From Promethearchaeia archaeon (lineage in GTDB: Archaea > Asgardarchaeota > Lokiarchaeia > Sigyniarchaeales > SOKP01), in the NCBI GenBank assembly GCA_029856085.1, contig JAHQWI010000064.1, positions 1-46,765 on the forward strand: a DNA stretch of 46,765 nucleotides. Direction: 5' to 3'. The notes beneath the pieces were generated by a model. That model did no database searches, was not told the DNA's origin, and saw only the letters and a list, made by a program, of their open reading frames with translations. A program made the translations under genes and the position numbers. Positions 1,409 to 24,144 of the stretch are shown piece after piece. How positions within the stretch are numbered: the first letter of the stretch is position 1; every line of letters starts with the position of its first letter.

Positions 1409-2311
1409 TTGTTAGACATTTCTGAAGAAAAAATTGGTATTCTTTTACTTATCCCGTGTTTTAATGAAGAAGAAAACATTGAACATATATTAGAACATCT
1501 CCGTGATGTAAAACAAAATTTGCAGAAAAGAAGCGAATTTAATTTGGAAATCCTTATCATCAATGATGGTTCTACTGATAGAACCCTGCAAATTTTGGAG
1601 AAAAACAATCAAGATTCCCTTTTTACTATTATTAACTTCAAAGAAAATAAAGGTTATGGTTATACGCTTATAAATGGTTTTAAATATGCCAAAGAAATGA
1701 AGTTTTCCTGGATAATATCGATTGATATGGATGGTCAACATGAACCAAAGTGTTTATACAAGTTTATTGAACTAATCCTTACAAACCCACCAGAACAAAT
1801 TATTTCTGGTTCGAGGTATAAAAATTCAGACCTATTCTGGCAAAATCCGTGGAAAGATAGATTTCTTGTTAATGCGATCATCACAGGGATTCTCAATACT
1901 ATCGGATTTTCTATTACAGATGCATTTTGCGGACTAAAGGCATATGAATGTAATGCAATTAATGATTTGGATTTACAAATAAATGGATATGAAATACCCA
2001 TCGAAATTTGGATTAAATCAATGAAAGATGGATATAAAATTGTTGAAATAGGAGTCCCTGTAATATATAAAGATAGAAATGCGGTTTTAAAAAATGCAAA
2101 AGATAGCTTTTTGTTTAAAAAAGGAGAAGAAAGAATTGAAAAATATATTCAAATAATTGAAACACTTCTGAATGCTCCTTTAAAAACAAATATTAATGTT
2201 TTTAAGTCAATTTTTTCAAATTATTTCAATAGTGTGGATGATATTAATAAATATAATTTTAAAAAAATACAAGATTCAATATATACACAAATTAGAGAAT
2301 TAGAAACTTAG
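1409..2311 (+). CDS. Family 2 glycosyltransferase (DPM1-like)
   Basis: LLIPCFNEEENIEHIL, INDGSTDRT, DMDGQHEPK (DxD) motifs; TTG start. Confidence 0.85.
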   Translation: MLDISEEKIGILLLIPCFNEEENIEHILEHLRDVKQNLQKRSEFNLEILIINDGSTDRTLQILEKNNQDSLFTIINFKENKGYGYTLINGFKYAKEMKFSWIISIDMDGQHEPKCLYKFIELILTNPPEQIISGSRYKNSDLFWQNPWKDRFLVNAIITGILNTIGFSITDAFCGLKAYECNAINDLDLQINGYEIPIEIWIKSMKDGYKIVEIGVPVIYKDRNAVLKNAKDSFLFKKGEERIEKYIQIIETLLNAPLKTNINVFKSIFSNYFNSVDDINKYNFKKIQDSIYTQIRELET

Positions 2312-2320
2312 TAGATTAAA

Positions 2321-3016
2321 ATGAACCTTGAACTAGATATTTTAGTGATCGGAGCCCATCCAGATGATGCAGAAATCGGATGTGGAGGAACAATTGCCCA
2401 TTATAAGAAAAGAGGTAAAAAAATAGGGGTTTTGGATTTATCAAATGGAGAACCCACTCCATTCGGTACTGTTGAAAAAAGAATGGCTGAGGCTAAAGCA
2501 GCTTCTGAAATTTTACATCTAGATATAAGAATTACTCTAGATATGACAAATAGATATATTGAAAATACAATAGAGAATAGAAAAAAAGTTTCTGAAGTGA
2601 TTAGAAAATATAAACCAAATATACTTATTACCCATCCCTCTAATGATTGGCACCCAGACCATATAGCTTGTCATCAGATTGTAAATGCTGCTAAATTTCA
2701 AGCAAAACTAACAAAAAGTGAATCTAAATATCCTGAGTATTCCCCAAAATATGTCTTTTATTTTGATCATTCGCATTTAAAGGATAAGAATCGAAAATTG
2801 GACTTTTTAATCGATATATCTGATTCTATCGAAGAAAAAATAAATGCCCTTAAAGTCTATAAATCACAATTTGTTGATAATAAAAAGTATTTAAGAATCT
2901 TTGATTATATAAGAGAACGTGCAGGATATTTAGGATATCAAATTGGTGTAAACTACGCTGAAGGATTCATTAATTCTGAATATTTATTGGTGGATTTTGA
3001 AAACTTTAAATTTTAG
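2321..3016 (+). CDS. PIG-L/LmbE-family deacetylase, BshB1-like
   Basis: GAHPDDAEIGCGGT zinc motif, HPDH second motif, C-terminal KVYKSQF as in BshB-type proteins; 9 nt after the GT2 stop. Confidence 0.88.
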   Translation: MNLELDILVIGAHPDDAEIGCGGTIAHYKKRGKKIGVLDLSNGEPTPFGTVEKRMAEAKAASEILHLDIRITLDMTNRYIENTIENRKKVSEVIRKYKPNILITHPSNDWHPDHIACHQIVNAAKFQAKLTKSESKYPEYSPKYVFYFDHSHLKDKNRKLDFLIDISDSIEEKINALKVYKSQFVDNKKYLRIFDYIRERAGYLGYQIGVNYAEGFINSEYLLVDFENFKF

Positions 3017-3026
3017 GTGAAAAGAA

Positions 3027-4736
3027 ATGTCAGACGATAAGCTCGAAGATCCATTAAAATATTACCTGTTATACGCTTTAGAAAGACAAGAATCTTGGAT
3101 TTCTGAAGGTATGAAAGATATTATACCCCAATCTATGAGTGATGCCATTTTTCTTGCCAAAAAAATAAACAGAGAAATGGAAAAGGATAGAAATAACAAT
3201 GAAATGAAATTAGCATTGGGGAAAATTTTTGAAAACACAAATAATAAATATAATCTACTGACTGACAAAGCTAAGAGACATTTAGAAAATTTTCTTACTG
3301 ATAATAATAGTATGAGTTTAGAAGTTTCACATCAACCTAAATTTTTAGGTGGAGAAAGGTTTCTTTTTAACAAAATGGCATGCGGAGCAGCTTTTGCGAA
3401 TCTTGATAATAATATAATTCCAATTTTTTATGTTGCTGATTATGATAAGGTCCATTCTGAATTAATAAAAACCAAATTTTCGCAAAGTGATTCACCTAAT
3501 GGATTTTCGATTTCAATAAAACCTGAAATAGAAAAGGAATTTCTTGATATGAGAATTAGAAATCTTCCGCTACCATCTCTGTCTTATCTCTTAGAACAGT
3601 TTCAAGAAATTAGAAAAAAATACATTAATTCTATTAACTCCTGCTTAGAGGATAATTGGCATAAAAAACTATTAGAAGAGCGGTTAGAGGAAGCGCTTCG
3701 GTTAATCAAAATCGCACATAATAATGCAGAAAACTATACAGACTGGTTTATCAACATAATTGGGACAATTTCTAATATTATCTTTGATCAAGGCTATCTT
3801 TTTATTTCTGCTTCAGATTTGGCATATAAGAAGCTATTAACACCATTTTATGAGACATTATTAGAAAATCAAAGTAAGTATGTTGATACATATTTAGATT
3901 TAAGAAATCAATTTATAGATCATCATATTCAACCTCCCTTAAGAGAGATTAGAGATGACTTTGTCCCTTTTTTTTATGAATGCACTAATGAACAGTGTAA
4001 CTGTAAGAGACTAGAATTATCCTGTCAAGATTATACATCAATGATCCATGTTAAATGTAAATGTGATCATTGCGGGGATTTAATAGATTTTAGTCTTGAA
4101 AAGGATAAGCCTGATCTTTCTGAGTATGCGTCTTTTTTCACTCCCAGAGTTGAATCCCGTCAATATTTAATCTCAAAAACCATCCAACCAGCAATACATA
4201 TTGCAGGTACAGGTGAAACTAGATATTATACGATGGGAATCCCTCTGATTAGACATTTTGATAAAGATATTTCTTTACCTGTTATTTATTTTTATAATAA
4301 AATAACAATGAATACATTTATCACGAGGAAGCTTGAGCAAGATTTAGTCAAATTAAATATGCCACAATTTTTGGAAAATATAAAAGGCCTGATGAAAAAT
4401 CTTGGGAAGTTTAATCGTTTAATCAATAAATCCGAGGTGTCTGCTATGGAAAGGGCAAAAATAATAGAAATTTTAAATAAGTTTCAACCATATATGATGC
4501 ATATCGAAAATATCTTATTAGAAAACCAATCAACCGATATAGCTTCAGAGGATAAAAATATTATTTCAAGTTATTTAAGTAATATGTTCGGAAAAATCTC
4601 TAAGGAAAAACACGGACAAGAGGCAGTATTTCATTGGTTGGATTTATGTTTAAAAAACGGGTTATCTAATTTCTTTAATGATTACTTTCGAATTTACAAA
4701 CCGTGGCTCCCTCCTGGAATAGAAATCTTTCTATAA
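3027..4736 (+). CDS. BshC-like protein (putative cysteine ligase/adding enzyme) with a Cys-rich insertion
   Basis: 569 aa; SHQPKFLGGERFLFNKM...IIPIFYVADYDKVHSEL and FTPRVESRQYLISKTIQPAIHIAGTGETRYYTMGIPLIRHF line up by eye with BshC GQQxGLxxGPLYxxYK...PVFWxAxEDHD and LxPxVxxRPVxQDxLLPTxAYVGGPxEIxYxxQL; 10 nt after the PIG-L gene. Confidence 0.75.
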   Translation: MSDDKLEDPLKYYLLYALERQESWISEGMKDIIPQSMSDAIFLAKKINREMEKDRNNNEMKLALGKIFENTNNKYNLLTDKAKRHLENFLTDNNSMSLEVSHQPKFLGGERFLFNKMACGAAFANLDNNIIPIFYVADYDKVHSELIKTKFSQSDSPNGFSISIKPEIEKEFLDMRIRNLPLPSLSYLLEQFQEIRKKYINSINSCLEDNWHKKLLEERLEEALRLIKIAHNNAENYTDWFINIIGTISNIIFDQGYLFISASDLAYKKLLTPFYETLLENQSKYVDTYLDLRNQFIDHHIQPPLREIRDDFVPFFYECTNEQCNCKRLELSCQDYTSMIHVKCKCDHCGDLIDFSLEKDKPDLSEYASFFTPRVESRQYLISKTIQPAIHIAGTGETRYYTMGIPLIRHFDKDISLPVIYFYNKITMNTFITRKLEQDLVKLNMPQFLENIKGLMKNLGKFNRLINKSEVSAMERAKIIEILNKFQPYMMHIENILLENQSTDIASEDKNIISSYLSNMFGKISKEKHGQEAVFHWLDLCLKNGLSNFFNDYFRIYKPWLPPGIEIFL

Positions 4737-4744
4737 TGTGTAGG

Positions 4745-5728
4745 TCACTTTAGTTTGAAGAACTTAATTGCATTTTCCCAATAAATCTTCTTTAAGACAT
4801 CAAGAGGAAGATCCAAGCCATTTATCTTTGTATTATTATCATTTTCTGGATCTGGAAAAGGTAATGGTATGTCCCGGCAAGGGGTTTCTAAAATTGCTTG
4901 GAAGGTAAAATAACGAGTCCGATAATAATCTGAAATTGGTTTGTTTCGATCTTGCACAAGATCTGTCCCAAAAAGAATTCTATCTGAATATTTAATAAAG
5001 AATTCTTTGGCTTTTTCTGGATACCTCCCAAGTTCTCGTGCCATCCATCTTGCTGAAGACGTATCAATATAGTAATTTGGATATGACTCAAACCATCTCG
5101 CAAGGTTTTCTAGATCTTCTGGTTGACCTCCAAAATGTGCTTGTTGTACCTTTAAATTAGGAAAACTTGATAAAATCTCCTCAAAATCATCTATGTGTTC
5201 TCTTTTAGTGCCATATTTACTAACTGGTTGATACACTTTCTCGTACCAAAGATCTGGATCGCTAACATGAATTAATAAAATAAGTCCTAATTCTTCTATC
5301 TTGGCAAATATTGACTTAAAAAAAGGATCAGATAATTTAATTTTTGGTGGATCAATTTTGAATTGTTCTCTTACAAAATCTCTTACTCTCGGTCCAAACC
5401 AAAATTTAACAACTGGAAATCCTTGTTGATAAATCTTCTCAATTGAATCTAACGTTAATTTAAGGTTTGGATTTACTTTAAAAAGCTCTCTACTTCTAAA
5501 ATACTTAGCCTGTACAAACTTATCAGGGAATTTTGTTTCTAATTCGTCATAACCATTCCCCCAGACGATACCAACTGATTTTTTGATGTTAAACTCTTCT
5601 CTGAACTTAATCAAATTATGAATGCCGCCTATACTCCCTAAATGAACATGGGCATCAAATTTCGGACCATAATATTTCGATTTAACCTGTGTATCATCAT
5701 TAACGTACTCTGAAATATATTTTTGCAC
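4745..5728 (-). CDS. Amidohydrolase-family TIM-barrel metal hydrolase
   Basis: FDAHVHLGS N-terminal metal motif, LLIHVSDP, QQAHFGGQPEDL, RILFGTDLVQD. Confidence 0.8.
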   Translation of the reverse strand: MQKYISEYVNDDTQVKSKYYGPKFDAHVHLGSIGGIHNLIKFREEFNIKKSVGIVWGNGYDELETKFPDKFVQAKYFRSRELFKVNPNLKLTLDSIEKIYQQGFPVVKFWFGPRVRDFVREQFKIDPPKIKLSDPFFKSIFAKIEELGLILLIHVSDPDLWYEKVYQPVSKYGTKREHIDDFEEILSSFPNLKVQQAHFGGQPEDLENLARWFESYPNYYIDTSSARWMARELGRYPEKAKEFFIKYSDRILFGTDLVQDRNKPISDYYRTRYFTFQAILETPCRDIPLPFPDPENDNNTKINGLDLPLDVLKKIYWENAIKFFKLK

Positions 5729-6942: not shown

Positions 6943-7404
6943 ATGCCAGAAAGTATCAAATCACTAAAGTTTGTATATGATTATGCAAAAAGTTTGTTTG
7001 AAAAGCGAAAAGATAATCATTTTGAAGAATCAATGAAAAATTCGTTGTTTGAAAAAGAGCAAACGGCTATTGATCTTTTTATACATGCTATCAGCCTACT
7101 AAATTGGGCATCGAGAAAAACTGTTGATCCTGATGTAGATAATAAGGAGATAGCAATAAAATTAGACCCCGAATCCACTGCACCTTTACACGAACAATTA
7201 TTAGACTTGTTTAATACCGCAATTGAAGCCTATGTAGAGGCAAGATCTAAATTTAAAGAAGAAGATCTTCAAAATACATTTAAATCCCCTTTTGGGAGAG
7301 AAATGACCTACGAAGATTGGTTTGGATTCATTATTCATCACACAATAGGTCATATTTATCAAGTCTTTAGATTACAAGCAATATATCTAAGACAAAGAGT
7401 CTAG
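6943..7404 (+). CDS. DinB-fold protein
   Basis: 153 aa helical; FIIHHTIGHIYQVFRLQAIYLRQ resembles the C-terminal DinB metal-binding helix. Confidence 0.6.
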   Translation: MPESIKSLKFVYDYAKSLFEKRKDNHFEESMKNSLFEKEQTAIDLFIHAISLLNWASRKTVDPDVDNKEIAIKLDPESTAPLHEQLLDLFNTAIEAYVEARSKFKEEDLQNTFKSPFGREMTYEDWFGFIIHHTIGHIYQVFRLQAIYLRQRV

Positions 7405-7471: not shown

Positions 7472-7978
7472 ATGACTTTGGAATTCATAAAAGGTGCTCT
7501 AAACGAGCAGTATGGTGCTGCTATCGGAATGATGGAGCAAAATTTAAAAAGTTGCCCAAAGGTAGTATGGGATGATAGAACCGGTGGACCCCCATTTTGG
7601 CATGTGGCTTATCACACGATGTGGTTTTTGGATTGGTATCTTTCGGATTCCAAAAAAACTCGCGAAAGTTTCAAATCGAAATTTGGTGAAGCATCATCGC
7701 ATCTTGAACAATTAAACACAACACCAGAAATAACATTGACACCTGAACAATTATTAGAGTATTTATCAGAAATTAAAAAAAAAGCTAAAAATCGGTTTGA
7801 TAATCTGACCATGGATGAATTAATCCGACCTTCTGTATTTGAATGGCACGGAAAAAGTTCTTTAAGCTCATTACTTTATAACCTTCGGCATATAATGCTA
7901 CATATAGGCGCTCTTAATTTAAGGCTACGTAGAAAAGGTGTAAAGTTAGACAACTGGGTTGCTCATCGAAAAATTTAA
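7472..7978 (+). CDS. DinB superfamily protein
   Basis: PPFWHVAYHTMWFLDWYL and YNLRHIMLHIGALNLRLRRKG match DinB His motifs. Confidence 0.82.
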   Translation: MTLEFIKGALNEQYGAAIGMMEQNLKSCPKVVWDDRTGGPPFWHVAYHTMWFLDWYLSDSKKTRESFKSKFGEASSHLEQLNTTPEITLTPEQLLEYLSEIKKKAKNRFDNLTMDELIRPSVFEWHGKSSLSSLLYNLRHIMLHIGALNLRLRRKGVKLDNWVAHRKI

Positions 7979-10818: not shown

Positions 10819-11316
10819 ATGAATGTTGAAAAAGATATAATTCTAGTTTTACCTGAAAAAATTGTTGCAGAACTAAAAGAATGTAATAGAAACGCAGCCC
10901 CTACTGAAGCTTGTGGACTCATTTTTGGAGATATAAAAAAGATTGAGACAGCAAAAGAAAATTTCCAAATTCATTATATCGGAAAACAATTCTATTGTTT
11001 AAAATCAAACATCGAATCATATGGTTCATTTGCTTTAATTGAAGATTCTGATAAGTATTTTGAAATACATCAGGATGCAGTTTATAATAGACAGTTAAGA
11101 ATGATAAGTATATTTCATTCACATCCCGTTCCTCCATACCCTAGTTCAATTGACATAGAAAATATGAGGTATCTTAATGAGGATATAGGAAAAAAAAGAA
11201 ATCCATTTAAAAATCAAATTTGGACGATTATGGATATGAATACAGAAGATATCAATGGATTTATTTATTACAATAAAGAATTATTACAAGTTGATTTGAA
11301 AATAATGAATGAGTAG
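10819..11316 (+). CDS. JAB1/MPN (JAMM) metalloprotease-like protein
   Basis: EACGLIFGD and HSHPVPPYPSSID motifs. Confidence 0.83.
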   Translation: MNVEKDIILVLPEKIVAELKECNRNAAPTEACGLIFGDIKKIETAKENFQIHYIGKQFYCLKSNIESYGSFALIEDSDKYFEIHQDAVYNRQLRMISIFHSHPVPPYPSSIDIENMRYLNEDIGKKRNPFKNQIWTIMDMNTEDINGFIYYNKELLQVDLKIMNE

Positions 11317-11333: not shown

Positions 11334-12005
11334 TTATTGAGTCTGCTTGAAACCAGCCTTATCAATAGTACAGATTTGTAGTTCAAATCCTGAGCCGGCA
11401 TCCCTCACTCTTGAGCTTGTTATTGCCGTTTTTATGAGATCAATTCCCTTAGCTTTCGTCATATTTGGTTTCCAATCTGCTTCTAAGACTCCTAACGAAA
11501 ATGGTGAACCTGAACCGAAAGAAAGAAAGCTATCCTCTTTGTATAAGGTTCCTAACATGTCAATGCCGTAAAGATTACCAGATTTCTCAGTTAGGGAAAA
11601 ACCGCCCACGATCATCATACTAACGAAAAAACTGCGACCTGAGAAGAGTATATTACGGCAGATGCTAGCGATATATTTTGGTTCAGGAACAATTCCTTCA
11701 TCCACTTCTTTTAATCGAGATAGAGCTTTTAATTGATTGACAACGTATTGACAATCAGCCACTCCACCAGCGATCGTAGTAGCTGTGAAATCGTTTATTT
11801 GAAATAGTTTTTGAGCTTGTTTAGACGCGACCGTAAAACCTGCTGAGGCCTGGCTTTCGGTACCAATAACGACACCATCTTTAACAACTATTCCAACAGT
11901 GGTAGTACCTGTTTGAATCGCTTTTTCGAGTGCTTTCTCATCGTAAATACGGTGATCCATATTATTATTTAACATTTTTTTATAGGCAATTTCTACTATA
12001 ATCAA
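11334..12005 (-). CDS. psmB: Proteasome beta subunit
   Basis: TGTTTVGIVVKDGVVIGTESQASAG with N-terminal catalytic Thr region; KLFQINDFTATTIAGGVADCQYVVNQLK. Confidence 0.92.
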   Translation of the reverse strand: MIIVEIAYKKMLNNNMDHRIYDEKALEKAIQTGTTTVGIVVKDGVVIGTESQASAGFTVASKQAQKLFQINDFTATTIAGGVADCQYVVNQLKALSRLKEVDEGIVPEPKYIASICRNILFSGRSFFVSMMIVGGFSLTEKSGNLYGIDMLGTLYKEDSFLSFGSGSPFSLGVLEADWKPNMTKAKGIDLIKTAITSSRVRDAGSGFELQICTIDKAGFKQTQ

Positions 12006-15096: not shown

Positions 15097-15200
15097 GGGA
15101 GGGTGGTCTAGCTTGGTATGATACTCGGCTGGGGGCCGAGAGATCGCTTAAGGTCTAAGCGATGAGGTAATGGTCGGGGGTTCAATTCCCCCCTCTCCCA
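15097..15200 (+). tRNA. tRNA-Pro(GGG) precursor with ~30 nt insertion after the anticodon stem
   Basis: Acceptor GGGAGGG/CTCTCCC; anticodon arm CTCGG-CTGGGGG-CCGAG; T arm GGGGG-TTCAATT-CCCCC; insertion holds 8-bp hairpin ATCGCTTA-AGGTC-TAAGCGAT. Confidence 0.85.
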
Positions 15201-24043: not shown

Positions 24044-24144
24044 GGTCCGGTAGTCCAGCTTGGATAGGGCGCTGGCTTGCGGAGCCAGATATGTGGGATC
24101 TTGTTTCACACTGGAGATCGAGGGTTCAAATCCCCCCCGGACCA
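24044..24144 (+). tRNA. tRNA-Arg(GCG) precursor with predicted 26-nt intron in the variable loop
   Basis: Acceptor GGTCCGG/CCGGACC; D stem GTCC/GGGC; anticodon arm CTGGC-TTGCGGA-GCCAG; T loop TTCAAAT; predicted intron 24091-24116 flanked by BHB (CCAG/CTGG, bulges ATA and AGA). T stem GAGGG/CCCCC has one A-C mismatch. Confidence 0.87.

Follow-up and report, generated by a model that had tools for sequence, protein, structure and literature searches.

A three-gene cluster predicted to direct the synthesis of a bacillithiol-like low-molecular-weight thiol was found in the 46,765 nucleotide (nt) contig JAHQWI010000064.1 (GenBank assembly GCA_029856085.1). This whole stretch, referred to here as the window, comes from a metagenome-assembled genome (G000; 3.26 Mb, 214 contigs, 79.7% complete) of the Lokiarchaea, which are archaea that stand near to the ancestors of eukaryotes. 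The genes encode a family 2 glycosyltransferase (GT2), a PIG-L deacetylase of the BshB1 type and a remote homologue of BshC. The favoured reading, given a probability of about 0.68 from sequence comparisons, is that a soluble GT2 replaces BshA, the family 4 glycosyltransferase (GT4) of the bacterial pathway to bacillithiol (BSH), a sulfur compound with a protective role.

The three open reading frames lie on the forward strand with intergenic gaps of 9 and 10 nt. The first (1409–2311, TTG start) encodes a soluble GT2 of the DPMS/GtrB/ArnC type of 300 amino acids (aa) (PF00535, E=6.8e-26), the second (2321–3016) a 231-aa BshB1-type N-acetylglucosaminyl deacetylase (PF02585, E=3.4e-27), and the third (3027–4736) a 569-aa archaeal-type BshC homologue. 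A preliminary description of the window had recognised this cluster and its spacing, and the motifs quoted there are present letter for letter; the GT2, BshB1-like and BshC-like assignments that it proposed were all supported by family models.

A conserved Lokiarchaeal gene cluster

The distribution of the cluster was examined in 231 Asgard genomes, in which families are labelled f, genera g, genomes G and loci L. An orthologue of the GT2 was found in 16 of the genomes, all Lokiarchaeal, and close relatives of the BshC homologue (identity at least ~45%, with split pieces at 38–48%) were found in exactly the same 16. As the GT2 and this BshC subfamily recur together in this way, the cluster is not a chance association, and a conserved Lokiarchaeal cluster is confirmed as real. 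A BshB1 above the curated cut-off is also present in 15 of the 16 genomes, and the remaining genome (G145) has a short 109-aa BshB1 frame in the same place. Two of the cluster-bearing genomes are single contigs (G091, 6,035,313 bases; G095, 4,427,796 bases). Only 4 of 19 genomes in the genus of the window carry the cluster, and one scan of genome contigs returned only close Lokiarchaeal relatives.

The preliminary description had staked its reading on two points, the conservation of this gene order in related genomes and the placement of the 569-aa protein in the BshC family. The GT2-BshB1-BshC order was found to be preserved wherever contigs allow, and profile searches put the protein inside the BshC superfamily, as set out below. 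A search for a GT4 BshA, which it had also proposed, identified none (TIGR03999, E<=1e-60) in the 16 genomes that carry the cluster, of which two are rated 99–100% complete, and the window genome contains only distant GT4s (best 123.3 bits against a cut-off of 273.7).

A set of 123 genomes was scored as carrying BshC, made up of 114 with relatives of the 569-aa protein found by sequence search (archaeal-type BshC) and nine with a BshC above the TIGR03998 cut-off. Within this set, BshA was found in 91 genomes, the GT2 in 16, both in none and neither in 16 (mainly families f15 and f16), while only 4 of the 108 genomes without BshC carry BshA or the GT2. Among the closest counterparts of the Lokiarchaeal cluster are loci in families f13, f14, f18 and f28, which share the BshC superclade and its insert. 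These loci keep BshA (TIGR03999 above cut-off) together with a PIG-L protein below the BshB1 cut-off, whereas the Lokiarchaeal genomes show the reverse, a BshB1 and no BshA. As equivalent loci in other families consist of genes for BshA, a PIG-L protein and an archaeal-type BshC, the Lokiarchaeal cluster is by its predicted products a mosaic, with the GT2 in the position that BshA has in other Asgard bsh clusters.

The BshB1 deacetylase and the BshC homologue

The deacetylase scored 202.7 bits against TIGR04001 and thus passes the curated equivalog cut-off of 182.5. Residues H13, D15, D16 and H114, in the motifs HPDD and HPDH, are invariant among 16 aligned homologues, and the relatives identified in the Protein Data Bank (PDB) were 2ixd and 6p2t. 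The Lokiarchaeal proteins branch with canonical BshB1s, apart from the PIG-L proteins that accompany Asgard BshA.

The 569-aa protein matched TIGR03998 over residues 46–527 with 33.9 bits (E=1.6e-8; curated cut-off 265.8) and was likewise below the curated cut-off for PF10079 (19.5 bits; cut-off 27), a Pfam search returning no model at E<=0.001. A single-sequence phmmer search of the PDB gave no match. When 24 representative members of the alignment were searched, all 24 matched TIGR03998 at E<=0.001 and no other NCBIfam family was matched. A profile built from 22 of these sequences, leaving out two bacterial-type Asgard BshCs, found Bacillus subtilis BshC (4WBD; 4wbd_A) as its sole match in the PDB (E=1.3e-21). 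A PDB profile search with the canonical BshCs included (E=1.3e-42) was discarded as partly circular and the 22-member profile was preferred. Alignment of an 8-row Lokiarchaeal profile with two canonical Asgard BshCs using hhalign gave an uninformative E=0.071.

Twelve columns are invariant in archaeal-type and bacterial-type BshC, including Q103, G109, K116, D140, E145, R328, G394, E397 and Y400. Archaeal-type BshC also contains a zinc-ribbon-like insert with four cysteines (C319, C324, C346 and C349 in the Lokiarchaeal numbering) that the canonical BshC sequences lack; in families f11–f14 it is reduced to fewer cysteines. The Lokiarchaeal proteins form a single clade inside archaeal-type BshC (support 100/100) on a long stem branch. 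It is concluded from these profile and alignment comparisons that the 569-aa protein is a remote homologue of BshC and, by the curated model, not an equivalog, and it is predicted to ligate cysteine to a glucosamine (GlcN) moiety. The Lokiarchaeal BshC clade is new and is overlooked by curated models.

The glycosyltransferase

The GT2 has a GT-A catalytic domain with DxDGQH and GSRY motifs and an invariant PWKDRFLVN block, followed by a soluble helical C-terminal extension of ~75 aa. Its closest solved relatives by sequence are dolichyl-phosphate mannose synthase (DPMS; 5mlz; PDB profile E=1.5e-17), GtrB and ArnC. A structure model (predicted local distance difference test (pLDDT) score 56, predicted template modelling score 0.50) recovered DPMS, GtrB and ArnC as the top Foldseek matches (E ~1e-5), though TM-scores of only 0.31–0.37 make this weak support for the relationship. 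The DxDxQH and GSRY motifs are shared with the GT2s DPMS, GtrB, ArnC, AglJ and PpgS. In contrast to these enzymes, the Lokiarchaeal GT2 has the soluble C-terminal extension, lies in an operon with BshB1 and BshC and has no transmembrane segment, the highest 19-residue Kyte-Doolittle mean being ~1.6 across the whole set. Membrane-anchoring transmembrane helices are usual, though not universal, in GT2s of the DPMS/GtrB type.

GT2 enzymes of the DPMS/GtrB/ArnC type invert the anomeric configuration, unlike BshA, a GT4 that retains it. The linkage in the product, and perhaps the acceptor, should therefore differ from those in bacillithiol. The GT2s of family f3 (L082, L084 and L086) end in a cysteine-rich tail, TRCTCCGC or similar, which is not found in the GT2s of family f1.

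Proposed pathway and alternatives

In the proposed pathway, the GT2 would transfer N-acetylglucosamine (GlcNAc) from UDP-GlcNAc onto an acceptor, X, to form GlcNAc-X. Given the inverting family, the linkage is likely to be beta, as against alpha in BSH. Malate or another small hydroxy-acid could serve as X, as could a small phosphorylated compound; polyprenyl-phosphate is a less likely acceptor. BshB1 would then deacetylate GlcNAc-X to GlcN-X, a step for which the family evidence is strong, and the archaeal-type BshC would join cysteine to the glucosamine nitrogen to give Cys-GlcN-X, as remote homology and co-occurrence suggest. The fuller proposal, that Lokiarchaea make a new Cys-GlcN-X thiol using a GT2 unrelated to BshA or MshA, a cysteine ligase from a newly recognised clade of BshC and an amidohydrolase that processes the thiol, is tentative and falls somewhat short of an even chance.

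The cluster resembles the BshA-BshB1-BshC systems of Bacillus, Thermus, Deinococcus and Asgard family f17 in having a BshB1 above cut-off, a BshC homologue and a compact operon. It differs from them in carrying a GT2 instead of the GT4 BshA and in having a BshC of another clade, with the four-cysteine insert and scores below the cut-offs. The mycothiol (MSH) pathway of MshA, MshB and MshC follows the same logic of sugar transfer, deacetylation and cysteine ligation with another acceptor; there MshA is a GT4 and MshC is related to cysteinyl-tRNA synthetase, whereas the Lokiarchaeal cluster shows only weak matches to MshB.

Several observations count against replacement of BshA by the GT2 in a thiol pathway. 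The solved structures closest to the GT2 are those of polyprenyl-phosphate glycosyltransferases, and to our knowledge none of these enzymes acts on soluble acids. The TIGR03998 score of the BshC homologue is 8-fold under the cut-off and a profile built solely from Lokiarchaeal BshCs matched 4WBD weakly (E=0.041), so that its substrate could have changed. An AlphaFold2 model of the 569-aa protein made from eight close homologues was unusable (pLDDT 36.9). YpdA above cut-off was absent from the Lokiarchaeal genomes tested and BrxA/BrxB (PF06491) was found in 0 of 33 genomes searched, though neither partner is strictly required. Finally, the 16 genomes represent a single BshC clade and may all go back to one predicted replacement of BshA; their number is thus a sign of linkage and persistence rather than of repeated invention.

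Bacillithiol itself or its beta-anomer would be the product if the GT2 had converged on the BshA reaction, making GlcNAc-malate, a sub-case of the pathway above in which X is malate. The deacetylase passes the cut-off of a model for GlcNAc-malate deacetylase and branches with canonical BshB1s rather than with the PIG-L proteins beside Asgard BshA, and canonical bshCBA genes are present in other Asgards. However, on what is known of the family this type of GT2 is inverting while the linkage in BSH is alpha, it is the Lokiarchaeal BshC that has diverged, and we know of no relative of the GT2 that uses malate. This product is considered rather unlikely.

A lipid-linked route was also considered, in which the GT2 would make polyprenyl-phosphate-GlcNAc, the PIG-L protein would deacetylate it and BshC would cap the GlcN with cysteine, yielding a membrane thiol or a cysteine-bearing glycan precursor. 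All of the closest solved relatives of the GT2 point this way, as do its retained DxDxQH motif and weaker NCBIfam matches that include AglJ and PpgS, makers of polyprenyl-phosphate-linked amino sugars. Against this, the GT2 has neither a transmembrane segment nor a strongly hydrophobic stretch, the deacetylase passes the equivalog cut-off of an enzyme with a soluble substrate, and the conserved neighbours include no recognisable gene for a flippase or an oligosaccharyltransferase, making such a route improbable.

More improbable still is that the genes belong to no thiol pathway and modify a GlcNAc glycan or a cofactor, with the BshC homologue ligating an amino acid other than cysteine; this would accommodate a BshC far under its cut-off on a long stem branch, the absence of the usual partners in BSH redox reactions and the statement in a 2015 paper that the BshC reaction had never been demonstrated biochemically in vitro (PMC4360819), but the trio strictly co-occurs with a true BshB1 and the same archaeal-type BshC superclade adjoins a true BshA in other Asgards.

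Candidate partners and neighbouring genes

The gene adjacent to bshC in the window (4745–5728, reverse strand) encodes a metal-dependent hydrolase of the Amidohydro_2 family (PF04909), for which no PDB match and no NCBIfam match was found. This gene adjoins bshC in 15 of the 16 Lokiarchaeal loci. In family f1 the two genes converge tail to tail, and in family f3 the amidohydrolase gene follows bshC in the same direction. Orthologues (E<=1e-50) were identified in 101 Asgard genomes, comprising 96 of the 123 with BshC and 5 of the 108 without (Fisher p ~4e-33, a value that ignores shared ancestry), and the five belong to families that carry BshC. Elsewhere, as in families f17 and f28, the amidohydrolase gene is on other contigs or distant from bshC, and the association with BshC is therefore not only physical.

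The association of this amidohydrolase with BshC is new, and the protein is a probable fourth member of the pathway favoured here. Its probable substrates would be the completed thiol or S-conjugates of it, and a role such as that of an S-conjugate amidase is proposed because such amidases accompany both BSH and MSH. The amidase accompanying MSH is Mca, and both Mca and its BSH counterpart, Bca, are PIG-L proteins. Bca has been reported as the S-conjugate amidase that accompanies BSH (PMC4360819).

Two genes for DinB_2-family proteins, candidate thiol S-transferases, follow on the forward strand. Bacillithiol S-transferases belong to the DinB_2 superfamily. A paper devoted to these transferases is PMC5815605. 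The first gene (6943–7404; PF12867, E=4e-07) was found beside the cluster in some loci of genus g1 only, a weak association. The second (7472–7978; PF12867, E=1.8e-06) is also weakly associated; among the Lokiarchaeal genomes tested, 5 of the 16 with the cluster carry it and none of the 19 without. As a co-occurrence resting on five genomes, four of which represent one linked locus, this is suggestive.

Elsewhere in the window, a frame with a JAMM/MPN-type peptidase motif (10819–11316) adjoins a proteasome-beta-like frame (11334–12005), both recognised by eye. Two Rfam tRNA matches of ~100 nt (15097–15200 and 24044–24144) exceed the length of a plain tRNA and probably contain introns; ARAGORN calls only the second of them.

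Other Asgard bsh loci and significance

A 2020 review drew on InterPro to report homologues of BshA and BshC in Asgards, with BSH undetected in archaea (PMC7278568), and a BLAST survey from 2025 found the complete BSH pathway in no archaea (PMC12719100). In family f17, proteins above the cut-offs were found for BshC in eight, BshA in nine and BshB1 in seven genomes, and the genes are adjacent as bshC-bshB1-bshA in the loci read (L069:7287-10684 in G063; L070 in G058). As all three are above cut-offs and adjacent, the pathway predicted for f17 contradicts the statement that no archaeon has a complete one (PMC12719100). A canonical bacterial-type bshC-bshB1-bshA locus was also identified in G170 (L071), with BshC and BshB1 above the NCBIfam cut-offs and BshA cut by the contig end.

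Loci L058, L060, L073 and L067 of families f15 and f16 carry an archaeal-type BshC with neither BshA nor the Lokiarchaeal GT2. The f15 BshC adjoins an aminotransferase (PF00155), which is found beside BshA-BshC in f28 as well. The only protein like YpdA, the bacillithiol disulfide reductase, to pass the curated cut-off in the genomes tested is encoded at G042:C2:342363-343331, in a genome of f14 in which BshA and BshC are likewise present.

No description of a GT2-based variant of the BSH pathway was found in the literature searched. The GT2 variant is thus new, while the BshA and BshC homologues of Asgards were already known. Three forms are present in Asgards: one family has canonical bshCBA, others combine BshA with an archaeal-type BshC, and Lokiarchaea have the BshA-less GT2 variant. 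The last of these points to a specific, testable thiol in Asgard archaea. If the proposed pathway is correct, Lokiarchaea would have solved the first step in making a cysteinyl-glucosamine thiol in a different way, and the product would be the first thiol of this kind in archaea.

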